Below are positions 19,185-45,973 of a stretch of 64,000 bases of DNA, in pieces. Numbering within the stretch: the first letter of the stretch is position 1; each line of letters starts with the position of its first letter. A program made the position numbers and the translations under genes. The notes beneath the pieces are model-generated. The model worked only from the letters and a program-made list of their open reading frames with translations, searched no databases and was not told the origin of the DNA. This stretch comes from Candidatus Poribacteria bacterium (GTDB lineage Bacteria > Poribacteria > WGA-4E > WGA-3G): NCBI GenBank assembly GCA_022821965.1, contig JAJECN010000056.1, forward strand, positions 62,001 to 126,000. Reading direction: 5' to 3'.

Positions 19185-19431
19185 CTAACCCGTCCTCTCT
19201 TGCGTTGTAGAAGTTTCGTAGGATTATGTTGTGATACTGGGTTGCATTATAGGGTAAAGCACAGAAAAACGCAATACCGAAGTATCTTCACTACTGAAGG
19301 ATCGCGTGCGTCTTGGGAACACGCCCTTTTTGGTTTTCAAGAGGTTATATGTTCTTGACCTTTCCATGAAAACGCGCGCCACTATATCAGACCTGAGAGA
19401 TGTCTTCTGAGATTGAGGAGAAAATTGGTTA

Positions 19432-19460
19432 TTGACAAAGCAAGAAAGGCGTGTGATAAT
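19432..19460 (+). promoter_or_regulatory. promoter of the tandem PhyH gene
   Basis: TTGACA at 19432-19437 and GATAAT at 19455-19460, 17 bp apart, with TGTG before the -10. The same promoter with flanking bases recurs at 43584-43612 in front of a decayed copy of this gene's end. Confidence 0.7.
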
Positions 19461-19540
19461 ACTGCTACTGAATCAGGCGTATAAATGGTATTCCAAACTC
19501 CAAATCGGTATTGACCATCCACTGATAACAGGAGAAATAA

Positions 19541-21283
19541 ATGGATAACGAAGTCATGAGCAACGAAGAGAACTACGCTTTTGATGTGGCAGGCTATCTA
19601 CACATTCCGGGTGTTCTCAGCCAAGAAGAGGTGGCAGCACTCAACGCGGCATTAAATGCAATTGAAGATAGTGAGATGCTGTTAGGCGGATCCAGTCCGC
19701 ACCGCGAATTGTTCCGCGATCTATTGGTACATCCGAAATTGGTATGGTATTTGAACCAGATTGTGGGACACGGTTTCCGACTTGATCAAGCACCTCAATT
19801 GTTGGGGAATCGAGAGGGTGAAGTCGGCACAACACTTGTTGGTGGCGATGAACCGAGAAATCCGTCCTTGGCATACCGCCAACAAAACGGTCAGCGGCGT
19901 TGTCAGGGCGTGAAAGCGTTCTGGGCATTGGAAGACATCGCAGAAGGGGACGGTGGATTGATTGTCGTTCAGGCGAGCCACAAGAGCAATGTTGAAACAC
20001 CCCACGACTTGGCAACCGGCGTTGATGATATGGGGTTAGTGGTACAACCCGAACTGAAAGCAGGCGATCTATTCTTGGTCGCGGTACCTACGCTCCAAGG
20101 CTTTCGACCGTGGAAAGATGAGTCTAAAAGGTTGTTGGCGTATTGGTATGCCGCGCGTGCGGCGGTTCAATCCAATCCAGTTGGACCTTACTCGGAAACG
20201 GAATCTTTGCCGGGATGGGCAGACGAGGCGACACCTGCGCAAAAGGCAGTCATGTATGTCCCTGGGTATAAGGGTTCAAGTCCGCCACCGGTGATAAATA
20301 CAGATGGCGAAGAAACATGGGTGGAGGAAGACTCGTCTGTCATTCATCCATCAATTTATATCCGCGACCCGGATTCGGGGATTGATGAGAAAGAGTTTTA
20401 CTTTTGGGATCTGAATGGGTATGTGGTGGTGCGTGGTTTAATGGATGAGCAATGGCTTGCAGAAGCGAATGAGGCGGTGGATAAATTCCAGGATCGGATC
20501 GTCGTAGGCGAGGAATTAGCGCGCGGGTCGATAAGTCAGGCTGGCACAGGGCGACCGCTCCTGCCGGGTTTGTTAGACCTACCTGACCCCTATAACGCTC
20601 CATTTCGACGCATGATTGCACACCCCGCGGTGGTGCAGCGACTCAATTGGATGGGCGGTAGCGGCTATCGCATGGGTGGCGCGACCGTATTCTGCGCGGT
20701 TCAGGGAACGTCGGGGCACTCGCTGCACGATGGAAATGAACCGATGACACCCTCACGCGGTTATGCTTTTAAGAACGGACGCAGTTATGCTGAAACCGTC
20801 ACTATTACGTGGCAATTACGCGATGTCGAGCCCGGACTGGGCGGTTTTGCCTGTGTGCCTGGGTCTCATAAGACGCAGTACTCCATGCCCCGCGGGATTC
20901 GGACGTGTGATGATACCATGGGGTTGGTCGTACAACCCGTTATGAAGGCAGGGGATGTTCTCTTCTTTATGGATGGCGGTTGCACACACGGTGCCTTAGC
21001 GTGGAAGAATCCAATTCCCAGACGCGGGGTACTGATTAAGTATCAGTCGAAAAATGTCAATTGGGGTGGCGGTGTGATTGATCCGCAAGACCGGTGGGGC
21101 GATATGGTTGAAGATATGACCGAGGAACAATTCGCTGTCATGCGGGGACCTGAACGGGATGGTCGTCACCGAACTGTACCGCGATTGGTTGTAGAAGATG
21201 GACAGGTGTCCGTTTCCTACGATCCAGCAGGGGATAGTTATGCCTCAAAGCATCGACGAAAACCCGGTGAAAAACGCGAGTAA
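19541..21283 (+). CDS. tandem two-domain PhyH-like protein with degenerate first domain
   Basis: A 580-aa protein, twice the normal PhyH length, with two homologous halves (about 8-235 and 280-545). The halves align through LGG/MGG, DEPRN versus NEPMT, GLIVVQASHKS versus GFACVPGSHKT, and MGLVVQPELKAGDLF versus MGLVVQPVMKAGDVLF. The second half keeps candidate iron ligands (H393, H396 and D397 in HSLHDG, H483 in CTHGALAW). In the first half the corresponding positions read TTLVGG and TLQGF, so the histidines are gone. The N-terminal half is therefore probably a structural or binding pseudo-domain. AGGAG precedes ATG 19541. Monocistronic, ended by a strong hairpin. Confidence 0.82.
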   Translation: MDNEVMSNEENYAFDVAGYLHIPGVLSQEEVAALNAALNAIEDSEMLLGGSSPHRELFRDLLVHPKLVWYLNQIVGHGFRLDQAPQLLGNREGEVGTTLVGGDEPRNPSLAYRQQNGQRRCQGVKAFWALEDIAEGDGGLIVVQASHKSNVETPHDLATGVDDMGLVVQPELKAGDLFLVAVPTLQGFRPWKDESKRLLAYWYAARAAVQSNPVGPYSETESLPGWADEATPAQKAVMYVPGYKGSSPPPVINTDGEETWVEEDSSVIHPSIYIRDPDSGIDEKEFYFWDLNGYVVVRGLMDEQWLAEANEAVDKFQDRIVVGEELARGSISQAGTGRPLLPGLLDLPDPYNAPFRRMIAHPAVVQRLNWMGGSGYRMGGATVFCAVQGTSGHSLHDGNEPMTPSRGYAFKNGRSYAETVTITWQLRDVEPGLGGFACVPGSHKTQYSMPRGIRTCDDTMGLVVQPVMKAGDVLFFMDGGCTHGALAWKNPIPRRGVLIKYQSKNVNWGGGVIDPQDRWGDMVEDMTEEQFAVMRGPERDGRHRTVPRLVVEDGQVSVSYDPAGDSYASKHRRKPGEKRE

Positions 21284-21294
21284 TGATGGATACA

Positions 21295-21341
21295 TTATCA
21301 CTTACCGTTCCAGTGCCAAATCCGCGAACGGTAAGTGATAA
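21295..21341 (+). terminator. intrinsic terminator-like hairpin
   Basis: A perfect 16-bp inverted repeat, TTATCACTTACCGTTC (21295-21310) and its complement at 21326-21341, with a 15-nt loop. It lies 11 bp after the tandem PhyH stop and just before the end of the convergent gene at 21353, so it can serve both. Confidence 0.7.
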
Positions 21342-21352
21342 CGCAAAACAAC

Positions 21353-21637
21353 CTAAGGAAGTTCTTCAATATCGTTTCCGTTCTCAAGTCTCTTTTTGTA
21401 TTCGTTCTTGAAAATCCGCTGAATCCGCTGAAACTCTTTCCAATTTATAAGACCCAAGAGCACACCTTTCATATCAACGCCGTGTTTATCTTCCACAGTG
21501 TAATACTCAACCCGAATAGTAAACTGATCAAAATTCCTATGGTCGATAGAAATTCTCGATGCCTCCTTAATTTCATGTTGAGTGCCAGAGACTTCCGTTA
21601 TTGTTATATCAACAGGATTATGCCATATAAATAACAT
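21353..21637 (-). CDS. hypothetical small protein
   Basis: A 94-aa protein of unknown function. It contains beta-strand-rich text (HNPVDITITEV, FDQFTIRVEYYTVEDKHG) and a C-terminal amphipathic helix (NWKEFQRIQRIFKNEYKKRL). ATG 21637 is chosen because GAGG lies 6 nt upstream; another in-frame start exists at 21649. It follows the small HTH-like gene (21685-21783) on the same strand, so three short genes may form one unit: 22325 to 21353. Confidence 0.5.
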   Translation of the reverse strand: MLFIWHNPVDITITEVSGTQHEIKEASRISIDHRNFDQFTIRVEYYTVEDKHGVDMKGVLLGLINWKEFQRIQRIFKNEYKKRLENGNDIEELP

Positions 21638-21684: not shown

Positions 21685-21783
21685 CTATTCGTCTGATTCC
21701 TTCCATTGGGCGTATTTCTGAAGCGTGCGGATATCTATATTCAACGATTCAGCTGCTTCATGTAAGGGAGGGTATTGTCTCAT
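21685..21783 (-). CDS. 32-aa helix-turn-helix-like small ORF
   Basis: Translation gives 32 residues: MRQYPPLHEAAESLNIDI then RTLQKYAQWKESDE. The pattern (L.EAA..L.I...TL.KYA) resembles the first helices of MerR/excisionase-type HTH domains. Its ATG overlaps the stop of the upstream gene (ATGA at 21780-21783), so it would be translationally coupled. It may be a real micro-protein or the truncated start of a regulator. Confidence 0.4.
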   Translation of the reverse strand: MRQYPPLHEAAESLNIDIRTLQKYAQWKESDE

Positions 21784-22325
21784 TTGAGGATAAACCACAT
21801 CAATAACAAGCCGATGCCAAAGAAACCTATCCCGAAACCAATGGCGGTCCATCGCCACTTGCGAAGTTGTTTAAACCGCTGATGTGCTACATTGTTCAAC
21901 GCCTTGATCTCTTCTTGTAAATTCAGTGCCAATGCGGATTGACGCATATCAGGATGCCAACGTGCTACTCGACTTTCAAAAGTCACTCGTGGGATCTCCA
22001 CGAACCAGTTATTTCGGCGGTTCTCGGCAAAAAACCAGCTATCTGGATCTGTGCCTGTCGCAAGGATACCGAATTGCGCGTCGGTCGCAGAGAGAAGCCC
22101 CTTCAGATATTCGCGAGTCTCTAACACAATGCGCTCGGTGACAGGCACCTCACAGACAACAATAGCAACGAAATGGTTGGCATCGCAAACCACATAATCT
22201 GCAACACTATCGACCCCGGGAACGCCGAATTGGATCGGTAGATCTCTCAAAATCTCTTTGTCTGAAAACGGTAGCGTCGCTAAGTAGGTAGTAACGGCTT
22301 GTTGTATACGGTTGCGTAGCATCAT
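21780..22325 (-). CDS. HsdR-N-like nuclease-fold protein with C-terminal membrane anchor
   Basis: A 181-aa protein. Residues 35-105 (DSVADYVVCDAN, FVAIVVCEVPV, LKGLLSATDAQFGILATGTD) follow the core of the type I restriction HsdR N-terminal/PD-(D/E)XK domain. D43 and E59 are present, but the expected E-x-K reads E-V-P, so the catalytic lysine is missing. A helical linker (about 125-155) leads to one transmembrane segment near the C-terminus (AIGFGIGFFGIGLLLMWFIL). It may be an inactive nuclease fold tethered to the membrane. The following 32-aa frame overlaps its stop. Confidence 0.55.
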   Translation of the reverse strand: MMLRNRIQQAVTTYLATLPFSDKEILRDLPIQFGVPGVDSVADYVVCDANHFVAIVVCEVPVTERIVLETREYLKGLLSATDAQFGILATGTDPDSWFFAENRRNNWFVEIPRVTFESRVARWHPDMRQSALALNLQEEIKALNNVAHQRFKQLRKWRWTAIGFGIGFFGIGLLLMWFILK

Positions 22326-23466: not shown

Positions 23467-26400
23467 ATGATGATTAATACCTTAGAAGATCTGATTGTAC
23501 GCTGCCACCAACGGCACGAGCAGCCCCTTAAACAACGTAAGACGACTGTAACACGGCTGCCTTACAAACGGCTTCCCTATTACTTCACAGTCCATTGTGC
23601 GGACAGATACCCTGTGCTGCTTCAAGACTTGGAGGCATCAAGCATTTCCTTTATGCCGATAGGACGCGCACCTGGCGCTGACCGTCCGCCGCGTGATTTT
23701 GGAGGGAAACGTTTCTTGAAACCTCAACAGGCGGTAGACTGGGAAGCCATCCAATGGGCGAAGTCGTGGGGGATTCATGTGTATACTGGGGTTCCTTCGG
23801 CACGCGATGGCGCGCCCTGGCATGATATCGACTTTAAATATGAAGCTATTTGTGCCGCACCGGATGCCGTTCTTGCTTGTGTTCAAGCACTTGTTGATGC
23901 CGTTTCAAACCCGTTATTGACGCTGTTAGCGTCTGGTGGGTTGCGCTTTTCTTGCAGGATATCGGGGTACCTGCACCCGAACACCGAGCAGGCACGGTTG
24001 TATGTTTATAAAGAGACCACGACGGCAGAGAATCCACACCCACACGACGCGTATCTTGAAATCCTCGGCGAGAAAGGACACACTTGCTGGGATGCGCGCG
24101 CTGAAATCCTGCTTGGAGATTTGTTACATCCGCCTGTAATTTCCAAAGAGGTTTTCTTTGCACCGATTGATGCCCTTCGCGCTGTCCTGCGCGAACCTGT
24201 TTCGCAAAACATACAACACAAGGAGAATATCCCCGACGCGCCATACTCTCTCGGATCGGGCAAACTTGACCTCGCCAAAGAGGCGTTTTTTAAGCGTGGG
24301 TTTTCTTATGTCAGACAAGAGGATGGATATCACTATTGGCACCAACAGGGGCGTGAGAGTGGTAACACGGAGGTATCATTGTGGGAGAACGAAGAGGGCG
24401 TGTGGATATGCGCATCTACGCCTGATACTGGGCTGCCTATGGAGGCAACACTCATAACAGATGTTTGGAACGGCACTGGCATCTTGCCACCGATTCCTAA
24501 GACGGGACTGCCTATAGATGATAAGGTACTTGCCATTCGGGAAGGGGAACTGAGTCCATTGGCAATAAAACGTCTTCCTCCAGTGTTACATAAGTCGAGT
24601 ACCATTGAGAAGATTGATGAAACACGAGAAGAAATTAGCGTTCGGGTGCAGCGTGCTTTTGATAGAAACGCGCGTGTTGTTGGGTTTATTCCGGATATAG
24701 GTTCGGATAAAGCGGGTGAAATAGAATCCCTTCTGCAAAATAGTGAGGTAATCTACGGGCAGGATGCTGATTTTGCGGCAAAAGTGGATCAACGTTTTCA
24801 AAAGCGAAATGTGGGCTCCGTCCCACGCTGGCGGGATCGGATGTATCTCTGGGAGGAAGTGAAAGATATCCCGGTTGATGTGCGCATGGCAACACCCTTT
24901 CAACGTGGCAACGTCTGCGAGGATGCTCAGCGGTGCGAAGCCCTTGAGGAAAAAGGGGGGGATCCGAGTGAAATTATCTGTCCGGAGTGCCCCGTCTATA
25001 CAGCCTGTCAGGCGCGTGGCTATCTATCGCAATTCTCTACATTACAAACTGCTAAAGCACAAATACTGGTAGATTTTCGGATGTTTTTGGATCCACAATA
25101 CGCGAAAATAGTGGAACAATTTCTTGAAGGGCGCGATGGAACACATCCACTTTGTGTTATTAATATCACGAGAGAGAATCAACTGTTTCTTGAATGTGGA
25201 CTGTCAAAAACCACATTGGAGGCGTGGGTTGCCAATTGGCGAGGCAGTGCATTAGGCAACTTTGCCATACTCCTGCTAAATGCAGTAGGAATCAAAGATA
25301 AATCCCATGCCCACTCCATTAAACGCCTCCGGACAGTGATGCAGACGTTTGAATGGCTGGAAGAAGAAATTATCCAACAGATGTGCCACGTCAATGTCCA
25401 GGGCAGAGTGGTTGCACGAGGTGCGATTGATGCAGAGACCGGAGAAGAATTAGCACGCTATACCATCGAGTTTGAGCGAGGAATTTCTGCTTATATTCCT
25501 TTGGACGCTGCGGCTTTGGATAGATTGACAGCACAAGAGATGCCTGTTTTTGAACTCGACGCTTTTGTGCCGAATGAAGACATGAAAATCTTGATGTCGA
25601 TAGCCGATGCTATCAGTCTGGGTATCTTGGATACGGCGACTGTTGAAAACATTGAGGAGTTCCCAACGGTTTGTTCGGATCCAAACTGGACGTTCTGGCA
25701 TCAATTCAAACGTTTCTTTGTCCATTACACGCGGGACGCTGATGCCCCGATGCGATGGGATGGCGAAGTCCTACAGTTCTGGGTGCCGCCGGTTCTACAT
25801 CCAAGTGTCAGAAACCTTTTGGTCACCTCGCCGGCTCTCTACGGCGAGCATCTACGTCGGCCGTTCTCGAATGAGGAGACCGAGATTCTTCCCGCCCAAC
25901 CGATAGTGTGGGGTCCCGGAAACCGCGTTTTCCAGATTCGCACCGGTATCTATCCACGGAAGACAATTTTAGATCTCAGTAACACGTGGGACGTTCTTGG
26001 CGTGTCTGAAACAGGACAGCACATTTTTTGGAGAATCCAAGCTGAAATTGAAAGGGATCGAAATATTAAGCATGGGATTATAACCCATCTTTACGCAGTT
26101 GAACAGGTGAAGGATATCGCGAAGAATGAAAACGTCTGTTTCTTGACAGGTTTTCGAGTGGTGGAAGGATTAGAAACCGCTTTTCAAGAGGCGCAGGTCA
26201 TCTGGATAGTTGGCATGCCGGACATGGAACCCTGTATCGTTTTGGAGCGCACTCAGATCCTGTTTGGAAACGACGAGGAACCTCTTTCTTATCAAATGGA
26301 ATCTGAGTCCTACCTTTACAAAGACGAGCGCGTCCAGAGCCTTTATGAAAAAACAGTTGTCCATGTATTCGCAGAGATTATAGAACGGGCTCAGTTGAAC

Positions 26401-26850
26401 CGTTTGGCAAACAAGAAAGTTATGTTGCTTACAGGGTTGCGAATTCCTGGGATCACGGATAGGCCTGAAACGCTCCTCTTTGATTGGGAAGATTTCGATG
26501 TTGCTGGTGGGTTAGACAAACTCACTGAGGTGATAGCGACACGTCAACGATTTGAGACGGAACGCGACAATCTAACGCCTGAATCCAGCAGACGAGAGGT
26601 AGAAAGGGTTCTCGGGTGCTCCCCAAGGCAGGCCAACCGAATGTTGCAAAGGCTGAGGGGTGGGAAGGTACGTGTAACTTTCCGCGAGCAAATTCTCGCG
26701 CTTCTCGCCGATGGAGAGAAAACAACACCAGAATTCGTGGCGGCGATTCAAGGACACCCAAAAGCAATAAATACAGAACTCACGCGCCTTGTAAACATGG
26801 GTCAGATTGTAAAGGTCAAGCGGGGTTTATATAGACTTCCAAAGGTTTAG
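23467..26850 (+). CDS. 1127-aa protein of unknown function with Cys cluster and C-terminal HTH/winged-helix region
   Basis: I do not recognise a named family. The N-terminal part (about 1-300) includes LLASGGLRFSCRISGYLHP and a CWDARAEILLGDLLHPP stretch. A cysteine cluster follows: C484, C490, C505, C508, C514 (CPECPVYTACQARGY), fit for an Fe-S cluster or zinc. The region 930-1035 (FEIIERAQ-like: FAEIIERAQLNRLANKKVML) faintly recalls the last helicase motifs of superfamily 2, but no Walker A GxxxxGK[ST] or DEAD/DEAH box is visible. The C-terminus has two HTH-like segments, SRREVERVLGCSPRQANRML and a winged helix ending VKVKRGLYRLPKV. Nucleic-acid binding is therefore likely; a degenerate primase-helicase-like replication or mobile-element protein is one possibility. 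It stands alone behind an unusually long leader. Confidence 0.6.
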   Translation: MMINTLEDLIVRCHQRHEQPLKQRKTTVTRLPYKRLPYYFTVHCADRYPVLLQDLEASSISFMPIGRAPGADRPPRDFGGKRFLKPQQAVDWEAIQWAKSWGIHVYTGVPSARDGAPWHDIDFKYEAICAAPDAVLACVQALVDAVSNPLLTLLASGGLRFSCRISGYLHPNTEQARLYVYKETTTAENPHPHDAYLEILGEKGHTCWDARAEILLGDLLHPPVISKEVFFAPIDALRAVLREPVSQNIQHKENIPDAPYSLGSGKLDLAKEAFFKRGFSYVRQEDGYHYWHQQGRESGNTEVSLWENEEGVWICASTPDTGLPMEATLITDVWNGTGILPPIPKTGLPIDDKVLAIREGELSPLAIKRLPPVLHKSSTIEKIDETREEISVRVQRAFDRNARVVGFIPDIGSDKAGEIESLLQNSEVIYGQDADFAAKVDQRFQKRNVGSVPRWRDRMYLWEEVKDIPVDVRMATPFQRGNVCEDAQRCEALEEKGGDPSEIICPECPVYTACQARGYLSQFSTLQTAKAQILVDFRMFLDPQYAKIVEQFLEGRDGTHPLCVINITRENQLFLECGLSKTTLEAWVANWRGSALGNFAILLLNAVGIKDKSHAHSIKRLRTVMQTFEWLEEEIIQQMCHVNVQGRVVARGAIDAETGEELARYTIEFERGISAYIPLDAAALDRLTAQEMPVFELDAFVPNEDMKILMSIADAISLGILDTATVENIEEFPTVCSDPNWTFWHQFKRFFVHYTRDADAPMRWDGEVLQFWVPPVLHPSVRNLLVTSPALYGEHLRRPFSNEETEILPAQPIVWGPGNRVFQIRTGIYPRKTILDLSNTWDVLGVSETGQHIFWRIQAEIERDRNIKHGIITHLYAVEQVKDIAKNENVCFLTGFRVVEGLETAFQEAQVIWIVGMPDMEPCIVLERTQILFGNDEEPLSYQMESESYLYKDERVQSLYEKTVVHVFAEIIERAQLNRLANKKVMLLTGLRIPGITDRPETLLFDWEDFDVAGGLDKLTEVIATRQRFETERDNLTPESSRREVERVLGCSPRQANRMLQRLRGGKVRVTFREQILALLADGEKTTPEFVAAIQGHPKAINTELTRLVNMGQIVKVKRGLYRLPKV

Positions 26851-26984
26851 AAAGGAAGCATTCAGTATTATCATTCCATTCTCATTCACCGCGTCTACAT
26901 TCCTTATCCTGAACCAACACCACCTTCCGATTCTTGATGGTATCCAGACGCATAGGTCCCCAAGAAAGGGCGGATACTTTATCG

Positions 26985-27140
26985 TAGATTCTGTAATTAC
27001 TTATACACTCAGCATCGGTGCGGTTAGGAAGGCAGATCACAACCCCTCCTTTATCCCCCTTATCAAGGGGGCAGGTGAGTACACCGCAAAACCGCACCTA
27101 CCGAGGGGTAAAAGTGTGTATTTATTTTTGGAATTTACTA
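26985..27140. repeat. MITE-like palindromic element, copy 1
   Basis: Within the gene-free 26851-27179, nested inverted repeats are seen: outer GGTGCGGTT (27017-27025) with AACCGCACC (27090-27098), inner CCCCCTT-ATC-AAGGGGG (27055-27071). The left flank has TAATTACTTATACAC and the right flank TTTACTATAA. The same flank phrases border the element at 30594-30714, with a different hairpin core. No transposase is nearby. Confidence 0.6.
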
Positions 27141-27179: not shown

Positions 27180-28568
27180 ATGCAATTTAAACATCTCGGT
27201 CAATCAGAACTTGCCCGGAAGATAGCTATTTGGGCACTATCAATCGGATTTCTATTTTTCGGGTTTTTCTCTAACACATGGCGAGTTGCTGATCAGAATT
27301 GGTTTGCGACACATCAGAAAGACACCGAAGCGCATATCATGGGAAGGATGGTCAAATCTCGACAAGATGGTATCTTTTCAGCGGGTGGTCTGAATGGTTG
27401 GGGAACAGCGAAAAGTACTGATGCGGAATGGATACCTTCAACAGCACTGGGACCCCAATATACCGCTTATCTTTACAAACTCTCCTTTGAAAAATTTTCA
27501 ACCTACAATTCACAACCAGGCGGGCAAGGGATGATTTTTAGTCTACTTGATAGACTTATTCCGTTATCGCCACAAATCAAATTAACGTTATTCTATATAT
27601 TGACTGCTTTACTTTCTGCAGGCGCGTTGACATTCATCGTAAGTTGGTTCTATGAGGAATTTGGCGGGTGGGTCGCGATATTTGTTATCGGTTCGGCGGT
27701 GCTTTCCCAATGGTTGACAGTTTTTGGTAAGAATCTTTGGTGGAGTCTATGGGCATTCTACCTGCCAATGATTGTCGTCATGTACTTCCTTAAATTTAAA
27801 CGCCACAGCCTCGCGGAGAACCGTCAGTTCATCAGGTTTGGAATCCTAATCTTTATCGCTGTTTCTATTAAGTGTTTCATCAACGGCTATGAGTATATTA
27901 CAACCACTCTGGTAATGATGATGGTGCCGTTTGTCTATTATGTTATTCTCGACAAGTGGAGTCGTCATCAATGTGTGAAATGGACGCTTGCAGCCGGACT
28001 CGGATCAGGCGTGGCGATTTTTTTCAGTCTCGTGATGTTATGTTTCCAAATCGGTGCTGCCAAGGACGGGTTTATGGATGGGGTTGCGCATGTGATCTGG
28101 TCTTTTGGGAAGCGCACATACGGAGAGGCGGAGGACTTTCCACCGGTATATGCTGCCAGTCTGGAAGCAGGAACGATAGGGGTCGTTGTCACCTACATGA
28201 ACGGTATTTTCTTTGATCTCAACAACTATCTATCTCAAGAAAATTCGTTTGTCTCTAACTCCGTATTGAAAGTTCGCTATATTTACCTAATCGTTCTTTT
28301 TATGTTGATGTCTCCGCTGCTGTTTTTGCGTAGCAATGCAGAGCGACGCCAGCCAGACATTGCATTAATTTGGACGACATGGTTTTCAATCTTAGCACCT
28401 CTATCGTGGCATGTCATCTTCAAGGCGCACTCATATATCCATACACACATGAGTTTTCTGCTGTGGCAGATGCCCTTTACTTTCTTCGGCTTTGCCGTGT
28501 TCGGATCCGCTGTTATCGCCTCACTGAGGAGTGAAAGAAAGCGCAGTTATCCGTTCATACCTGTATGA
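27180..28568 (+). CDS. multi-pass membrane protein, possible GT-C-type glycosyltransferase
   Basis: A 462-aa integral membrane protein with about ten hydrophobic segments. After the first segment comes a periplasmic-type loop with KDTEAHIMGRMVKSRQDGIF and GLNGWG, which resembles the first acidic loop of GT-C glycosyltransferases and polymerases (acidic D-x-E near the first helix). Other loops carry QPGGQGMIF and HAHS-like KAHSYIHTHMSF. The function is inferred only. Its 3' end is followed by a partial duplicate of the last 70 bp, suggesting that the C-terminus was rearranged. The pectate-lyase-like gene follows on the same strand. Confidence 0.55.
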   Translation: MQFKHLGQSELARKIAIWALSIGFLFFGFFSNTWRVADQNWFATHQKDTEAHIMGRMVKSRQDGIFSAGGLNGWGTAKSTDAEWIPSTALGPQYTAYLYKLSFEKFSTYNSQPGGQGMIFSLLDRLIPLSPQIKLTLFYILTALLSAGALTFIVSWFYEEFGGWVAIFVIGSAVLSQWLTVFGKNLWWSLWAFYLPMIVVMYFLKFKRHSLAENRQFIRFGILIFIAVSIKCFINGYEYITTTLVMMMVPFVYYVILDKWSRHQCVKWTLAAGLGSGVAIFFSLVMLCFQIGAAKDGFMDGVAHVIWSFGKRTYGEAEDFPPVYAASLEAGTIGVVVTYMNGIFFDLNNYLSQENSFVSNSVLKVRYIYLIVLFMLMSPLLFLRSNAERRQPDIALIWTTWFSILAPLSWHVIFKAHSYIHTHMSFLLWQMPFTFFGFAVFGSAVIASLRSERKRSYPFIPV

Positions 28569-31108: not shown

Positions 31109-33751
31109 ATGAGAACTTTAGTCGTGAATCGAAATCTAATTGTATCAATTTTCGCAGTATTGATGTTGACATATAGCATACAAGGCATTAGTTATGCTCA
31201 GGATCCGCCTGACACCATTGTAGAATTTTCTGATTTAAATTTAGCCAAAGCAGTACGCAGCGCATTGGAACTTGGGACTACTGGTGGGCGTATTCCACTT
31301 CTGAAAATTCCCAAAGCAGAACTCGCAAGACTAACATACTTAGAATATAATAATTATAAGTACTGGGAAACGCCTATAGAACAGAAAATAAGTAATCTAA
31401 GAGGACTCGAACATGCCACGCATCTCAGAGAGTTAAGTCTCTATGGGAATAACCTTTCTGATCTCTCGCCTCTTGCGGGTTTGACGGAGTTGGTGAAGTT
31501 AGACATAAGTCAGAATAAAATCCGCGACCTTACGCCGTTGTCGGGTTTGACACAGTTGGCAAAGTTAGACCTCCGGGGTACACACAGAGTAGACTCCATA
31601 GGCAATGAAATCCGCGACCTTACGCCGTTGTCGGGTTTGACACAGTTGGCGGAGTTAGGACTTGGAAGGAATAAAATCATTGATCTCTCACCTCTTGCGG
31701 GTTTGACGGGGTTGGTGAAGTTGAGCCTCTCGCATAATTATATCACTGATCTCTCACCTCTTGCGGGTTTGACGGGGTTGGTGGAGTTATACCTTACAGA
31801 TAATGAAATCCGCGACCTTACGCCGTTGTCGGGTTTGACACAGTTGGCGGAGTTAGGACTTGAAAGCAATGAAATTATTGATCTCTCACCTCTTACGGGT
31901 CTGACGGAGTTGGTGACGTTATACCTTGTAGGTAACGAAATCCGCGACCTTACTCCGCTGTTGGGTTTGACGGAGTTGGCGGAGTTAAGCCTTGTAGGTA
32001 ATGAAATCCGCGACCTTACGCCGTTGTCGGGTTTGACGGAGTTGGTGACGTTATACCTTGGAAGTAATAAAATCCGCGACCTTACCCCGTTGTCGGGTTT
32101 GACACAGTTGATTTATTTAAGCCTCTCGAATAACCCAATCGAAAATTTCACGCCCCTTGCTGAATTCAAAAATTTAGAAGTCCTATTGTTATCAGGTTAT
32201 GACATCAGCGATTTGTCCTCGCTTCCAGTCCTGCCGGATCAGGCAAGAATACGTATATCGGGGTATGATGATCCATTAACACCCCGTGATATAGCACTTA
32301 TGTCGACTTCGGTGGGGTACACGCCTATAATACTGAATAATAATACCCGTTCGCTTGCGGGCACTCCAGCGAAACACAGTTTTCAATGGGATAGTACTGG
32401 CATAGCGGCTTATATGCTGCTTGCGGAAATGATGGGATGCGGTTTTGCTGATGCTGAAGTGGAATCCAAACATCAAGTTTATGTTAAGACGGAATCGTTG
32501 GGACGTTTGGAAGGTTTTGAGTCGACAACGGTTTGTGGAAGGAAGAGCCGCAGCGATACTTATGGCACTTATGACGCACGTCGTATCACACATCTGCGTT
32601 TTTATGATAAAAGTAGTTCTCCGAATATCCAAGAAATCATCTACAATAGTTACACGCATCAATATGAGTTAGCTGCTCCTAAGTTGATCCCTCCTATTCA
32701 GGATAATACACCTGAGTTGCCGACCGAGACATCTTCAAACATAATTGTTGCGCTTCAACCTGCATCGATTGTATCTCCCGTTATTGGCAAACAATTAACA
32801 TTTACCCTTCACATCACCGGTGGCAAATCGGTCGCGGGCTACCAAACAACTGTGCAGTTTGACACAACCGCCTTGCGTTATGTCTCAGGAGCGAACGGTG
32901 ATTATCTTCCTGCCGGTGCGTTCTTTGTAGATCCGAAAGTAGAAGGGAATCTCATAAAACTCAACGCTGCATCTCTCGCAGGGGAAAGCAATGGAGATGG
33001 CACCCTTGCAACACTTACCTTTGAAGTTATCGCAGCGAAGGCATCCACTTTGACATTATCTGATGTGCTGCTTACCGATAGTGCAGGGGAGACGTTTGTA
33101 CCTCGGATTGAAAACACTCAGATAACTGAATCAACGGGACTCAAAGGTGATGTAAACGGTGATGGGAGCGTTAACATCACCGATCTCGTCTTAGTTGCTG
33201 GCGCATTGGGTAAGACAGGGCAGAATGCTATGGATGTCAACGGTGATAATGTCGTCAACATTGCCGATCTTGTCTTGGTCGCTGGCGCATTGGGTACAAG
33301 TGCTGCCGCTCCTTCTCTATATCCGCAAGCCTTAGAAATGCTCACTGCTATAGATGTCAAACAGTGGCTATCCGCTGCACAGCAATTCGACCTCATGGAC
33401 GCAACGTCACAGCGCGGTATCCTATTCTTACAACAACTCCTCGCAACCTTGACACCGAAAGAGACAGCACTGCTTGCGAACTATCCAAATCCGTTCAACC
33501 CGGAGACATGGATACCGTATCACTTGGCGAAGGATGCGGATGTCACACTGCATATCTATGCCGTGAACGGTACGTTGGTGCGGACATTGGAACTCGGACA
33601 TCAAGCTGCGGGACTGTATCAGAACCGTTCGCGTGCGGCGTATTGGGATGGTAAAAACGCGTTCGGTGAATCTGTGTCGAGCGGTGTGTATTTCTATACG
33701 TTCACGGCAGATGATTTTTCTGCTACGCGGAAGATGTTGATACGCAAGTAA
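31109..33751 (+). CDS. secreted LRR-cohesin-dockerin protein with C-terminal FlgD-like sorting domain
   Basis: An 880-aa exported protein. Signal peptide about 1-31 (ending SYAQD). Residues about 97-364 are some twelve leucine-rich repeats of 22 residues of internalin type (IRDLTPLSGLTQLAELGL). A unique region (about 380-535) follows. Residues about 542-670 match a cohesin-like domain (VGKQL-type start, VAGYQTTVQFDTTALRYVSG, GTLATLTFEVIA). Residues about 680-729 are a type I dockerin with two calcium loops (DVNGDGSVNITDLVLVAGALG-type). The end has LLANYPNPFNPETWIPYHLA and SSGVYFYTFTADDF, a FlgD-like/secretion-linked Ig domain. Carrying both cohesin and dockerin, it could self-assemble or scaffold other dockerin proteins at the cell surface. 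Confidence 0.85.
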   Translation: MRTLVVNRNLIVSIFAVLMLTYSIQGISYAQDPPDTIVEFSDLNLAKAVRSALELGTTGGRIPLLKIPKAELARLTYLEYNNYKYWETPIEQKISNLRGLEHATHLRELSLYGNNLSDLSPLAGLTELVKLDISQNKIRDLTPLSGLTQLAKLDLRGTHRVDSIGNEIRDLTPLSGLTQLAELGLGRNKIIDLSPLAGLTGLVKLSLSHNYITDLSPLAGLTGLVELYLTDNEIRDLTPLSGLTQLAELGLESNEIIDLSPLTGLTELVTLYLVGNEIRDLTPLLGLTELAELSLVGNEIRDLTPLSGLTELVTLYLGSNKIRDLTPLSGLTQLIYLSLSNNPIENFTPLAEFKNLEVLLLSGYDISDLSSLPVLPDQARIRISGYDDPLTPRDIALMSTSVGYTPIILNNNTRSLAGTPAKHSFQWDSTGIAAYMLLAEMMGCGFADAEVESKHQVYVKTESLGRLEGFESTTVCGRKSRSDTYGTYDARRITHLRFYDKSSSPNIQEIIYNSYTHQYELAAPKLIPPIQDNTPELPTETSSNIIVALQPASIVSPVIGKQLTFTLHITGGKSVAGYQTTVQFDTTALRYVSGANGDYLPAGAFFVDPKVEGNLIKLNAASLAGESNGDGTLATLTFEVIAAKASTLTLSDVLLTDSAGETFVPRIENTQITESTGLKGDVNGDGSVNITDLVLVAGALGKTGQNAMDVNGDNVVNIADLVLVAGALGTSAAAPSLYPQALEMLTAIDVKQWLSAAQQFDLMDATSQRGILFLQQLLATLTPKETALLANYPNPFNPETWIPYHLAKDADVTLHIYAVNGTLVRTLELGHQAAGLYQNRSRAAYWDGKNAFGESVSSGVYFYTFTADDFSATRKMLIRK
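31505..32125 (+). repeat. near-identical 66-bp tandem repeats encoding LRRs
   Basis: Units such as AAATCCGCGACCTTACGCCG and GTCGGGTTTGACACAGTTGG recur with very few silent changes across the LRR region. Such identity at DNA level points to recent amplification or gene conversion and predicts copy-number variation between strains. Confidence 0.8.
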
Positions 33752-34034: not shown

Positions 34035-34110
34035 TGACAACTTCATCGAAATTAACATATCATAGCGATAAGTGTTGACTCATTGCTACCGTCCGAAAGG
34101 AGTACCGAAA

Positions 34111-34914
34111 GTGGCGAAAGCTCTCTCGCTTGTTGCATACGACGACTTAGAAAGCCAAGTTGGGGCATTGGAAAGGGACGGTTATGTCTATTTCCCCGGT
34201 GTGCTTGATGCCGATGAAATCGCTGAATTGCGTGCAACTATGGATCGGTTACCGGCAATTCCAGCGTCTCATGATCGGGATGAGACACTTGAAAATGGCG
34301 ATGCATTCCTTCACAAACTCATCAGTAACTCGTTTAATCGCGACCCCTTGTATCTCCAATTCCTTGACAAATCACCGGTTATTGAAGTTGTCGAGGCAGC
34401 GCACGGTGAGGATTGCCACTGCATCGGTATGCATTCGTGGCTGACAGGACCGAATCGTCCGGATCAGGGGTTACATACCGATTGGCTGCCAATCTCTTTA
34501 CCGGCAGATGTTCGTTCCGATCCACGCGTCAAAATCCCAATCTTTATCACGACTGCCCATTACTATCTCAATGATATGTACGAGGAATTGGGCCCGACGA
34601 AGTTTGTTCCGGGGAGCCATTTCTCCGGAGGCTCTCCAAACGGAGCAACCGAGTGGAACAATCGAGGCGAAGAGAGTATCCTATGCAATGCGGGAGACGT
34701 AGTGCTTTTTCGTAGTGAAATCTGGCATCGTGGCTCTGCCAATACGAGTGACGAAGTCCGTTACCTCTTGCAGGTACACTATGCGCAGCGGATGATTACC
34801 CAGAAATACCCACCCTATCTGAATAAATTTCAGTTTGATGCATCAATCCTTGCGCAAACGACCCCTCGACAGAGACGGCTCCTCGGCGATCATCGACCGA
34901 GTAATTACGATTGA
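34111..34914 (+). CDS. phytanoyl-CoA dioxygenase family protein, duplicate copy A
   Basis: A 267-aa PhyH protein. Ligands: H122 and D124 in GLHTDWLP, H206 in EIWHRGSANTSD, and R217. PTKFVPGSHFSG is the family strand before the distal ligand. GTG 34111 is chosen as start: AAGGAG lies 8 nt before it, and it aligns exactly with the ATG of the near-identical paralogue at 35630. The two copies are the same length without gaps. It is transcribed with sodC and the second copy. Confidence 0.9.
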   Translation: MAKALSLVAYDDLESQVGALERDGYVYFPGVLDADEIAELRATMDRLPAIPASHDRDETLENGDAFLHKLISNSFNRDPLYLQFLDKSPVIEVVEAAHGEDCHCIGMHSWLTGPNRPDQGLHTDWLPISLPADVRSDPRVKIPIFITTAHYYLNDMYEELGPTKFVPGSHFSGGSPNGATEWNNRGEESILCNAGDVVLFRSEIWHRGSANTSDEVRYLLQVHYAQRMITQKYPPYLNKFQFDASILAQTTPRQRRLLGDHRPSNYD

Positions 34915-34997
34915 AGGGAACGCATAATTTGAGGTGTGTCCTTATTTTTCTTATCAAATTCACGTTAGATTAACAAATTTTAACAAAGGAGCTAACA

Positions 34998-35573: not shown

Positions 35574-35629
35574 CTGTAGCAATCCTACTTTCGCTGGCAA
35601 GGAATGTAATACAAGAAGGAGGCATAAAA

Positions 35630-36433
35630 ATGTCGAAAGCCCTCTCACTTGTTGCTTATAACGATTTAGAAAGTCAAGTTGAGGCACTCGAAAGGGATGG
35701 TTATGTCTATTTCCCCAACGTGCTTAATGCTGAAGAGGTTGCCGAATTGCGAGCCACTATGGAGCGGTTGGAGGCGATTCCAGAGTGTTTGGATCGGCAC
35801 CAAATGCCTCAAAATGGCGACGGATTCCTCAACAAAATCATCAATAATTCGTTTAATCGCGATCCCCTGTATCTCCAATTCCTTGACAAATCACCGATTA
35901 TTGAAGTCGCCGAGGCAACGCACGGTGAGGATTGTCATTGCATCGGTATGCAATCTTGGCTGACAGGACCGGGGCGTCCGGATCAGGGGTTACACACGGA
36001 TTGGCTGCCAATTAGTCTACCCGCAGATGTGCGTTCCGATCCACGCGTTGAAGTCCCTATCTTCATCACGACTGCCCATTATTATCTCAACGATATGTAC
36101 GAGGAATTGGGGCCGACGAAGTTTGTGCCGGGCAGCCATTTCTCTGGATGCTCCCCAAACGGAGCAACCGAATGGAACAATCGAGACGAAGAGAGTATCC
36201 TGTGCAATGCGGGTGATGTGGTACTCTTCCGCAGTGAAGTCTGGCATCGGGGTTCTGCAAATACAAGTGACGAAACCCGTTATCTTTTACAGGTACATTA
36301 TGCGCAGCGGATGATTACACAGAAATACCCGCCCTATCTGAATAAATTTCAGTTTGATGAATCGATCCTCGCGCAAGCGAACCCTCAACAGAGAAGGCTC
36401 CTCGGCGATCATCGACCGAGCAATTATGATTGA
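35630..36433 (+). CDS. phytanoyl-CoA dioxygenase family protein, duplicate copy B
   Basis: A 267-aa paralogue of the gene at 34111, highly similar along its whole length at both DNA and protein level. Ligands H122, D124, H206 and R217 are all conserved. The start is ATG 35630 with AAGGAGG upstream; a longer frame from 35546 overlaps sodC and is not needed. Differences gather around residues 50-65 and at isolated positions, so both copies appear under selection. It follows sodC by 56 bp and precedes another, unrelated-in-detail PhyH gene by 30 bp. Confidence 0.9.
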   Translation: MSKALSLVAYNDLESQVEALERDGYVYFPNVLNAEEVAELRATMERLEAIPECLDRHQMPQNGDGFLNKIINNSFNRDPLYLQFLDKSPIIEVAEATHGEDCHCIGMQSWLTGPGRPDQGLHTDWLPISLPADVRSDPRVEVPIFITTAHYYLNDMYEELGPTKFVPGSHFSGCSPNGATEWNNRDEESILCNAGDVVLFRSEVWHRGSANTSDETRYLLQVHYAQRMITQKYPPYLNKFQFDESILAQANPQQRRLLGDHRPSNYD

Positions 36434-36463
36434 AGACCCATATTTTCCATCACCGAAGATGCC

Positions 36464-42510: not shown

Positions 42511-43434
42511 CTATCGCGCAGGAAGAATTTGATTGTTTGAATTCGCGTCGCTGTCGCAGGTGGCGGATTCAGTAAAGTATGGCATCTGCCAGTCGGTTTT
42601 CAAAATGTAGTGCCGCCAGAAGTATATCCAACATGGGATCGTAATTACAACTCCTATCAATCCTGCTTGCCAAAGTTCTGAAATTTCTACATCTGTTGTG
42701 GGTGAAGCGGATTCGCCAAACTTCGTTCCGAGCCAATCAAGCATCCAGGCAATGCCGTTGTTTGTGATGTGAATACTCATTGGTACAAAGAGTGACTTTG
42801 TTCGGATATAGAAAATAGCCATCACACAAGCGAAACAGAACATACCAATGATGTTGTTGTGCAGGAGTGCAAAAATTCCTGATGACACAATAAAAGCCCG
42901 GACAACGCCCCACTTGACAGACCATCGGGTCAACAGAATACCACGAAAAAAGAACTCTTCAACGATTGGAGCGACTAACACAACCGTAAGGAAATTCAGC
43001 AGATTTGCAAGCGCGTATTTATCACCAGCCCCATGGAGTGTAATTGTGGGTCCGTCGGTAAGATGCTCTTTGATAGGTTCAGGCATAACTGTGGATAGTG
43101 GGAATTGGAGAAGAAGAATGGATGACACTGAGAAAATGGCCACCGGTATTGCCCAGAAAGTATACCGTCCAAGTGTACGCCACGCTGGAAAGGTTCCAAA
43201 CAGTCGATTATAAGATAGACCTGCGCGAGATAGCATGCTGAGGGCAAACAGAGAAAAGAAAAGATATAGTAGTGGAGGTCTTAAAGCATCTTTAAGTGCG
43301 GACGACTCTTTGAGTCCAGGCAGGATGTTCTTAAGGATACCGACACAAAATAGGGTCGCAATAATCGCAAGAATGGCGTATCCGAGTAATGCTCTGGCGC
43401 GGATTCTGTCAAAAGAGGTCGAATCAAACTGCAT
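42511..43434 (-). CDS. CPBP-family (CAAX-like) intramembrane protease
   Basis: A 307-aa multi-pass membrane protein. The ABI/CPBP signature is APIVEEFFFRGILLTRW (paired glutamates and arginine), with later catalytic-site histidines in LLHNNIIGMF and MSIHITNNG. About eight hydrophobic segments. These are glutamate-type metal-independent or metal-assisted intramembrane proteases; targets are unknown. It stands alone on the minus strand. Confidence 0.85.
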   Translation of the reverse strand: MQFDSTSFDRIRARALLGYAILAIIATLFCVGILKNILPGLKESSALKDALRPPLLYLFFSLFALSMLSRAGLSYNRLFGTFPAWRTLGRYTFWAIPVAIFSVSSILLLQFPLSTVMPEPIKEHLTDGPTITLHGAGDKYALANLLNFLTVVLVAPIVEEFFFRGILLTRWSVKWGVVRAFIVSSGIFALLHNNIIGMFCFACVMAIFYIRTKSLFVPMSIHITNNGIAWMLDWLGTKFGESASPTTDVEISELWQAGLIGVVITIPCWIYFWRHYILKTDWQMPYFTESATCDSDANSNNQILPAR

Positions 43435-43583
43435 ATTGGATTTAAGGCTCTGGGTTTCTGATCGCTTGTGCGGTGGATTAACGAATTTCTAAGAATTATG
43501 GTTGTTTAAACTGAGATCAGGGATCTTGGATAGTTTACCACAAAACGTTTACGGGGTCTATCAGAAAGGATGGAAATTGGTTA

Positions 43584-43612
43584 TTGACACAGCGCGGGAG
43601 GTGTGTGATAAT
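43584..43612 (+). promoter_or_regulatory. duplicate of the tandem-PhyH promoter
   Basis: TTGACA at 43584-43589 and GATAAT at 43607-43612, 17 bp apart, with surrounding bases matching those at 19432-19460 (TTGGTTATTGAC and GTGTGTGATAAT). It now stands in front of a gene fragment and, further on, the creatininase-family gene, for which it may serve as promoter. Confidence 0.6.
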
Positions 43613-43629
43613 AATGCTACTATTGACAT

Positions 43630-43827
43630 CAGGATCGATGGGACGATATGGTTGAAGATATGACTGAGGAGCAATTCGCTGTGATGCAGGGACCTGAAGG
43701 GGATGGTCGTCATCGAACTGTACCACGACTGGTTGTGGAAGATGGGTAGGTGTCCGTTTCCTACGATCCATCAGGCGATAGTTATGCATCAAAGTTTCGA
43801 CGAAAACCGGGTGAAAAACGCGAGTAA
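43630..43827 (+). pseudogene. relic of the tandem PhyH gene (C-terminal 60 codons)
   Basis: The frame reads DRWDDMVEDMTEEQFAVMQG, GRHRTVPRLVVEDG, a TAG, VSVSYDPSGDSYASK and RRKPGEKRE, then stops at 43827. This is almost identical to the last 60 residues of the protein at 19541; the TAG replaces the CAG of a glutamine. It joins, within about 20 bp, to a copy of that gene's promoter, so about 1.6 kb has been lost between promoter and tail. The gap 43435-43583 holds nothing else. Confidence 0.88.
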
Positions 43828-43876
43828 TCGGAATCCTTGATTATAGCGTTTGACCATGATCGAAAAAGGATATCGT

Positions 43877-44770
43877 ATGACACACAATGAGGTGCGATGG
43901 GAACGGATGTTTCCCGATGAATTAGAAGCGGCACTTGAGGCGTGTCCGATGGTGTATCTACCCTATGGGTTGTGTGAACCGCACGGTTGGCACAATGCGG
44001 TTGGGATGGATGCGATTCGGGCACATGAATGCTCGTGTCAGGCAGCGCAAGCACACGGTGGGATTGTAGCACCACCGTTTTACTGGCACTGCCATGAGAT
44101 TGGCGGCTACGGTTCGTGGGGGCACAACCAAGTTAATCAAGAGCGACCGTGGCTCACAGCGATACCGCCTTGGATGTTTTTGAAGAATATCTGCTATCAC
44201 ATTCGAGCCGTGGATGCCTTGGGTTTTCACGGTGCGATTCTGTTTTCTGGGCATTCAGGTCCGCATCGGTTAGACGTGCCGGTGGTGATTGAGATTATGC
44301 AGGCATACGTCGGGGTTCGGATGTATTCGACGATGAGCATCGGTGCGGATATCGAGCGTTTCGAGGATGGTAAAGGGTTGGGCGGACACGCCGGACGCGG
44401 CGAAACATCGGTACTCTGGGCGGTCGCCCCGGACTGTGTGGATATGTCGCGGATGCCGACGGATGGTACACGCGCTCCTCATTTTGCAATGGGGGATTTC
44501 AACGAGTCCTCCAGCCGTCAAGTTGGGGAACAGATGGTGGCGGATATTGTGGCGCATTTCGGTGAGAAGACGACGGAGCTGCTAACGGCATATAAAGTAG
44601 AAGTGTCGAATCACACGCCACTGACGTTTGATGATATAGAGGGGATTTGGGAAAACGATATCCGACCGAAGTTGGCTGAGTTCGCTTCCATGCAGCCTCC
44701 TGAATCAGCACCGCCTGCTGATTCTCGTTGGTATCCCAATTCACAGGTGCCTACAGGGCGGATCCTGTAG
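43877..44770 (+). CDS. creatininase family protein
   Basis: A 297-aa metal-dependent amidohydrolase of the creatininase fold. Metal-binding sequence LPYGLCEPHGWHNAVGMD has the E, H and D arrangement of the family; FSGHSGPH and GHAGRGETSVL are the later conserved loops. Relatives open cyclic amides such as creatinine or formamidopyrimidines; specificity here is unknown. ATG 43877 is chosen for AAGGA 6-7 nt upstream; 43856 (ATG) is an alternative. It is 49 bp after the PhyH relic. Confidence 0.85.
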   Translation: MTHNEVRWERMFPDELEAALEACPMVYLPYGLCEPHGWHNAVGMDAIRAHECSCQAAQAHGGIVAPPFYWHCHEIGGYGSWGHNQVNQERPWLTAIPPWMFLKNICYHIRAVDALGFHGAILFSGHSGPHRLDVPVVIEIMQAYVGVRMYSTMSIGADIERFEDGKGLGGHAGRGETSVLWAVAPDCVDMSRMPTDGTRAPHFAMGDFNESSSRQVGEQMVADIVAHFGEKTTELLTAYKVEVSNHTPLTFDDIEGIWENDIRPKLAEFASMQPPESAPPADSRWYPNSQVPTGRIL

Positions 44771-44809: not shown

Positions 44810-45973
44810 TTACCAGTTCGTATGTGATCCGTCTCGTCGGCGCAGATGTGGCGGTTCCGCGAATTTGAATGTCTGTGACGTGACCAGTTCCTCATTAACT
44901 TCGATGCCCAAGCCCGGACCCTCCGGCACCGGTATAGAGGCACCTTCGAGCGTGAGTTGCACAGGGAATAGGTCCTCATCATAGTGTCCGGAACTTTCTG
45001 TCGGCGAGGTGCGGATTTCCAACCAAGCGAAATTGGTAACGGCAGCTGCCAGATGAACCGTCGCAGCAGTACAAATGGGCCCCAGCGGGTTGTGTGGCAT
45101 CAGGTCGATATAGTGTGCCTCGGCTAAGCCAGCAACCTTCATTGATTCCGTCAAACCACCAACATTGCATACGTCAAGTCGGGCGAAGTTCGTGATCCCA
45201 CGCTCCAGATATGGGAGAAACTGCCACTTGCTGGAAAATTCCTCTCCAATAGCAAATGGCACATCCACCATCGTCCGCAGTGATTCATACGCCTCTGGGG
45301 TCTCATCTCGGATGGGTTCCTCCAAAAAGTCAAGCGTACCGGAGGGCATACGTTGACAGAAAGATGCTGCTTCCGCAACGCTGAGTCGGTGATGGTAATC
45401 AATACCAAGGACGGGTTCAGATCCGATGGCTTCCCGAAGTGCTGTCAACCACTCCGCAGTGAGACTGATGGACTCACGTGGTTCAAAGATGTTTTCCGCA
45501 TCACCCGGTTTGGCACGATGCAACACATTTGTTCGGATGACGTTCCAGCCGTTATCAAGCAGTAATTGGGCGTTTTCGATTAATTGCTCAACCGTCGCCG
45601 CACCTGTCGTTGCGAAGCACGGGACCGCATCCCGTAGTTTTCCGCCGAGTAATTGGTAAACCGGTACGTTCAACGCCTTTCCTACAATATCGTGGAGTGC
45701 GATGTCGATTGCCGAGATCGCTCCTGTCAATGCCCGACCGCCTTCAAAATATTGGCTCCGGTACATCTCCTGCCACAATCCGCTAATCTGCATCGGATCG
45801 CGCCCAATCAGGAATTCTCGATAGTGCTTAACCGCACCTGCCACAGCCAATTCTCGACTTGAAAGTCCGGATTCACCCCACCCATAAATACCTTCGTCGG
45901 TTTCCACTTTGACGATGTGTTGATTTCTGTGTCCTACCCAAACGGGATACGGTTTGATGTCGGTGATTTTCAT
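44810..45973 (-). CDS. mandelate racemase / galactonate dehydratase-like enzyme
   Basis: A 387-aa enolase-superfamily protein. YGWGESG lies in the capping domain. Barrel ligands and bases: D and H in LGIDYHHR, E in FLEEPIRD, E in AIGEEFSS, and H in MPHNPLGP. The KxK motif of true mandelate racemases is absent (WNVIRTNV), which fits acid-sugar dehydratases such as the D-galactonate dehydratase group. AGGAAA lies upstream of ATG 45973. Convergent with the creatininase gene. Confidence 0.88.
   Translation of the reverse strand: MKITDIKPYPVWVGHRNQHIVKVETDEGIYGWGESGLSSRELAVAGAVKHYREFLIGRDPMQISGLWQEMYRSQYFEGGRALTGAISAIDIALHDIVGKALNVPVYQLLGGKLRDAVPCFATTGAATVEQLIENAQLLLDNGWNVIRTNVLHRAKPGDAENIFEPRESISLTAEWLTALREAIGSEPVLGIDYHHRLSVAEAASFCQRMPSGTLDFLEEPIRDETPEAYESLRTMVDVPFAIGEEFSSKWQFLPYLERGITNFARLDVCNVGGLTESMKVAGLAEAHYIDLMPHNPLGPICTAATVHLAAAVTNFAWLEIRTSPTESSGHYDEDLFPVQLTLEGASIPVPEGPGLGIEVNEELVTSQTFKFAEPPHLRRRDGSHTNW

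Follow-up and report, generated by a model that had tools for sequence, protein, structure and literature searches.

Two loci have been analysed in a window of 64,000 nucleotides of a poribacterial genome (G000, the genome under study), site A at about 19.4-27.2 kb and site B at 43.57-44.77 kb, with the window ORFs labelled by w and their start position (e.g., w23467 and w27180). Site A is marked by w13863, w15450 and DUF6785 on one side and by w27180 and w28677 on the other, and site B by a CAAX-protease-like (CAAX) gene and a mandelate racemase/enolase-like (MLE) gene. The features of both sites are as follows.

19422-19469, plus strand: predicted PhyH promoter of site A, recognised by sequence match (TTGACA at 19432, GATAAT at 19455, with the same spacing of 17 as at site B)
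19541-21283, plus strand: intact PhyH gene of site A (PhyH-A), 580 aa, Pfam PhyH match of 1e-20 at residues 289-496, with a second PhyH-like half seen by eye
21780-22325, minus strand: w21780, an ORF between PhyH and the lost creatininase, with no family match
23467-26850, plus strand: w23467, an ORF of 1127 aa that precedes creatininase in the genomes G013, G001 and G008, and its relic here
26907-26978, plus strand: creatininase relic of site A, the last 24 codons with two in-frame stops, 83% identical to the creatininase of G001/G008
27180-28568, plus strand: w27180, the conserved right neighbour of site A
42511-43434, minus strand: CAAX gene, the left neighbour of site B
43574-43621, plus strand: copy of the predicted operon promoter at site B (TTGACA at 43584-43589, a 17-nt spacer, GATAAT at 43607-43612), 85% identical to 19422-19469
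43622-43629, plus strand: putative deletion junction, placed by reading the sequences
43630-43827, plus strand: relic of the PhyH gene of site B (PhyH-B), the last 65 codons and the stop, with Gln changed to TAG at 43747-43749, 89% identical to 21086-21284
43877-44770, plus strand: intact creatininase-family gene of site B (creatininase-B), Pfam Creatininase match of 4.6e-22
44810-45973, minus strand: MLE gene, the right neighbour of site B

The fragment that precedes creatininase-B has been described in the first-pass annotation as the promoter and the last 60 codons of the gene at 19541, joined with about 1.6 kb missing. This composition was recovered by blastn of 43401-44000 against 19301-21500, which gave two collinear matches, the promoter piece (43574-43621 against 19422-19469, 41/48 identical, E 3e-11) and the PhyH tail (43630-43828 against 21086-21284, 178/199 identical, gapless, E 3e-74), with 1616 bp of the 19541 copy (19470-21085) absent between them; the tail, however, was found to be kept over 65 codons and the stop rather than over 60. 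The glutamine-to-stop change also held in translation, as CAG at 21203-21205 corresponds to TAG at 43747-43749, the sole in-frame stop ahead of the terminal TAA (43825-43827), and so did the distance of 49 bp that separates this TAA from ATG 43877, the likely start of creatininase, which is preceded by AAAAGGA. The PhyH piece is thus a pseudogene by its partial-length homology to an intact gene, the absence of codons 1 to about 515 and the TAG at 43747. A mobile, dispersed or stand-alone repeat was ruled out by genome and genus searches for copies of the promoter and the tail, in agreement with the earlier view of the fragment as a relic: the tail is present in 37 of 38 same-genus genomes (G016 has none), with one strong copy, the intact gene, in 36 genomes and two copies in G000 only, and the promoter pattern, with three mismatches allowed, is matched twice in the whole 5.69-Mb genome and never in the reversed control. 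An extra 30-base match to the tail (90%, E 8e-4), away from the gene at G034:C223:11655-11684, may be a tiny relic or a chance match. The search for structured RNA in 43400-43900 gave no Rfam match up to E 0.5.

The derivation of the fragment from the gene at 19541, which was also part of the first-pass annotation, is not what the sequence comparison points to. The PhyH relic differs from PhyH-A at 23 of 197 columns, including a few doubtful ones at the junction, with 5, 4 and 14 differences at the first, second and third codon positions, respectively, and it is altered at 5 of the 106 columns invariant across 31 intact genes. Such a third-position bias would be expected if PhyH-B had been functional for most of its separate history; most of the divergence has the appearance of change in a working gene that was disabled late. 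In the tail tree, the relic is placed outside the PhyH clade of G000, G001 and G008, as its sister, although weakly (support 89/74), and PhyH-A groups with G001/G008 at a support of 100/99. The relic is more likely to come from a separate, earlier-diverged intact copy than from the 19541 gene.

The neighbourhood of the two genes was counted in a genus sample of 36 genomes (G000-G035), 28 of which contain a full creatininase ortholog (90% or more). In 25 of the latter, PhyH precedes creatininase at a distance of up to 5.6 kb and on the same strand, the three exceptions being G000, where the two genes are 22.6 kb apart, and G001 and G008, where they are found on different contigs. The pair is also linked, with 106 bp between the genes, in a more distant poribacterial MAG (L163; creatininase 74% and PhyH 83% identical), and, given the linkage in the genus and in L163, PhyH followed by creatininase is most likely the ancestral order. 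The clues to promoter sharing pull both ways: the close spacing of 17-245 bp in eight relatives suggests an operon with a shared promoter, whereas the gap exceeds 1 kb in 17 of the 25 linked pairs, in which creatininase probably has its own promoter.

The partner missing from site A in G000 has left a trace there. The order at this site in G013 is PhyH, w23467, creatininase and w27180, and G001 and G008 carry w23467 (G008 only its end), creatininase and w27180 on one contig. In G000 the order is PhyH, w21780, w23467, 329 bp and w27180, and these 329 bp contain creatininase residues 275-297 with two stops, the match at 26907-26978 being obtained with E 3.6e-16 when the 28 creatininase orthologs were used as queries against the whole window. 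Over its length of just 72 bp, this relic is identical to the creatininase of G001 and G008 at 60/72 positions and to the own site-B gene at 53/72 (rank 25 of 28), as would be expected if the site-A pair was inherited vertically and the site-B pair was an older-diverged second copy. Both sites, therefore, hold a trace of the missing partner, the PhyH tail from 43630 and the creatininase tail from 26907. A comparable creatininase tail relic (residues 242-297) lies directly behind the intact PhyH gene in G005 (L071 8672-8842), which has no other full creatininase ortholog, and, therefore, a plain loss is indicated in that genome. All three relics seen, PhyH-B, creatininase-A and the creatininase of G005, are 3' tails with the start region gone, a number too small for a rule. 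No convincing PhyH relics were found upstream of creatininase in G001, G008 and G013, and the candidate creatininase relics by w27180 in G034 (E 0.18) and G006 (27 bp, E 0.004) were too weak for use. Between the creatininase relic and w27180, a palindrome-like stretch (CCCCCTTATCAAGGGGG) was seen by eye at 27040-27090, which may be a small insertion; the C-terminal end of the w23467 product has only a weak AbiEi-like match, and copies of this ORF are found at varied places in relatives.

Among the relatives, the pair or PhyH is located beside the site-A markers in most genomes whose neighbourhood was read, with the exceptions of G028 (site B), of G027, G004, G006 and L163 (beside w35546), and of L073, L162 and L173 (behind w12750). 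A CAAX match was obtained in 26 genomes. Site B is empty in 19 of them, with 31-168 bp between the CAAX gene and the MLE gene, and a further five have no MLE gene within the available 1.5-kb flank. The site is occupied in two, G028, which carries an intact PhyH and creatininase, and G000, with the promoter, the PhyH relic and creatininase, in the same place and orientation. Site A of G028 is closed, with 29 bp from w15450 to w27180, and relics were looked for there and none was found. In G010 (L228 5943-6942), the CAAX gene is devoid of residues 1-177 and ends up 31 bp from MLE, possibly by a deletion that also took out a site-B insert. A third PhyH location, site C, lies between w35546 and w34072 in G027 (L082 8556-10537) and L163 (2161-4891), in the latter together with creatininase. 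In the window itself, tandem paralogous genes with 85% DNA identity are located at 34108-34930 and 35627-36446, and degenerate internal repeats were revealed by self-comparison at 31446-32133 within the ORF 31109-33751.

The explanation that we consider the best, with a probability of about 0.8, is that a PhyH-creatininase operon was once present in a further copy, of whose PhyH gene the fragment is the remainder, with the opposite genes lost at the two sites and the promoter kept. The ancestral unit would have consisted of the promoter, PhyH and creatininase, and G000 apparently once had it in two places, each of which then lost the gene that the other retained. The gene kept at site A would be PhyH, with a deletion that spared only the last 24 codons of creatininase. 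At site B, whose flanking genes are CAAX and MLE, the gene kept would be creatininase; the deletion of PhyH would have begun immediately after the promoter and reached codon ~515, possibly with short ATTGA repeats as its endpoints, and the Gln-to-stop change is seen in addition. As the outcome, a distance of about 22.6 kb would now separate the two genes, each controlled by its own copy of the original promoter. The motif ATTGA occurs at the junction, on the tail side of the intact PhyH-A and, in G028, after the promoter, so that a short-repeat deletion with a microhomology of 5-6 nt is possible. The site-B copy may have come from a duplication or from an import, the gene trees, the AU tests and the mixed-origin CAAX allele giving no clear preference for a duplication within the lineage.

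The import is a variant of the best explanation and not exclusive of it: a recombination tract with a foreign CAAX allele and the operon would have replaced the local MLE-CAAX junction, and the resulting redundancy would have been followed by reciprocal loss, which we regard tentatively as having somewhat less than an even chance. The CAAX gene of G000 has 92% DNA identity to that of G027 as against 67-68% to the near relatives G001/G008/G017, the other genes around it on both sides show the usual pattern of 84-94% to G001, and the CAAX tree joins G000 with G027, G010 and G028 (support 99); the gene at 42511-43434 looks like an imported allele. Moreover, G028, which also has the operon at site B, has the flank left of the promoter in common with G000 (alignment score 31, with shuffles at 15.5 +/- 2.2 and a maximum of 24.5), the same alignment at six empty sites giving scores of 8.5-14.5. 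However, in neither G027 nor G010, whose CAAX alleles are the nearest, does site B contain the operon. Creatininase-B is not close to that of G028 (87.8% identity), and its identity of 89-90% to G001/G008/G017 equals the general background. In the tree, creatininase-B falls outside G001+G008, but a topology constrained to unite them was not rejected (p 0.0623). The constraint that unites it with G028 was marginally rejected (AU p 0.0425), so that the site-B occupations in G000 and G028 may be separate events; for a single insertion common to both, the shared left flank speaks in favour and the creatininase trees, which do not join them, against. The CAAX alleles are shuffled among the species generally, since G001 and G008 form a sister pair in the trees of PhyH, creatininase and MLE but have different CAAX types.

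An extension of the best explanation, speculative and rather unlikely, is that the PhyH-creatininase unit has a small number of preferred slots within one neighbourhood and keeps changing between them through short two-copy stages, with G000 just past one of them. The slots would be site A by w15450/w27180, site B between CAAX and MLE, site C between w35546 and w34072 (G027, L163) and a fourth one between w12750 and w13863 (L162, L173), and the loss would be biased to the 5' part of the redundant gene, leaving the 3' tail, as in three of the three relics.

As for the promoter that was kept according to the best explanation, the site at 43584 reaches a score of 11 out of 12, has a TG in front of its -10 element and is the best in 43435-43876, the best sigma70-like match upstream of creatininase thus falling inside the relic. 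Upstream of PhyH, the score of 11 for TTGACA-17-TATAAT is reached in 11 of 31 genomes versus 0.1% of 1860 mononucleotide shuffles, which served as the control, and the full-score motif is missing in many relatives, 20 of the 31 genomes scoring below 11. No terminator-like site was found in 43400-44000. In the simplest account, the 43584 promoter probably served creatininase already when this gene was second in the operon, and the PhyH deletion would have left it in place and moved it nearer to creatininase; its present use would imply a 5' leader of about 260 nt. A transcription of creatininase from another start, for example inside the relic, with the PhyH tail as a mere leader, appears doubtful. 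A second site near the junction (TTGACA at 43623, 18 nt, TATGGT), a 10-of-12 match with a score of 9.5, would be suitable for it, and the scan, with two sites versus 1.2 expected by shuffling, by itself proves neither of them; however, the 43584 site is the stronger match and recurs upstream of PhyH in related species.

The first-pass annotation had suggested a possible promoter capture, which would mean that part of the 19541 gene was copied together with its promoter to a place in front of a creatininase gene with no prior connection to it, which the promoter may now drive. Both pieces do match the 19541 gene region, and a promoter that once stood before another gene now stands before creatininase. 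However, creatininase is the usual downstream neighbour of PhyH in the genus (on one strand in 25/28 genomes, as also in L163), a creatininase relic is located downstream of the 19541 gene, and the relic has the divergence pattern of a formerly functional separate copy, all of which makes the capture very improbable. Since the promoter resembles that of PhyH in relatives, it is described better as retained than as captured: it was probably already the promoter of a creatininase-containing transcript, with nothing new captured. Chance or an assembly artefact, conceivable in a draft genome of 62 contigs with a contamination estimate of 3.88%, can be practically dismissed in view of the high identities and low E-values, the mid-contig position on a 183-kb contig and the independent second relic where relatives carry the gene.

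The reciprocal, or complementary, loss after duplication is known from the duplication-degeneration-complementation model and from the duplication/random-loss model of gene order, and the separation of genes linked in relatives is known as operon splitting in the sense of the 'life-cycle of operons'. As in the reciprocal-loss models, there are two copies of a multi-part unit, a different part lost from each and pseudogene scraps that mark the losses; unlike in them, the unit here would be a bacterial two-gene operon whose second copy may have arisen by import rather than by duplication. As in operon splitting, genes linked in relatives are now separate units in G000, but the split seemingly went through two full copies with opposite losses, with both fossils and a promoter at each site. 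In the Poribacteria, inhabitants of marine sponges, the PhyH family is described as unusually abundant (PMC3909097), and the parent gene of the relic is a member of this expanded family; the passages of that work devoted to it are without a description of a PhyH-creatininase operon, and the string 'creatinin' is absent from its main text. According to PMC12709175, a poribacterial PhyH-family enzyme belongs to those with 2'-O-methyl nucleoside demethylase activity, which for the gene at 19541 would be conjectural. At the level of titles and abstract openings, the literature searches gave nothing on a PhyH-creatininase operon or on a reciprocal loss of bacterial operon copies with both relics.

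The event is of a known kind and the mechanism is ordinary; the record is unusually complete. Operon splitting is mostly inferred from end states, whereas here both discarded pieces are readable in one genome, and with the empty, full and half-emptied sites in sister species the course itself may be read: a second copy, a loss on each side and a promoter kept. A promoter that remains after the gene upstream has been deleted can mimic a capture even though it is the promoter of the surviving gene's own operon.
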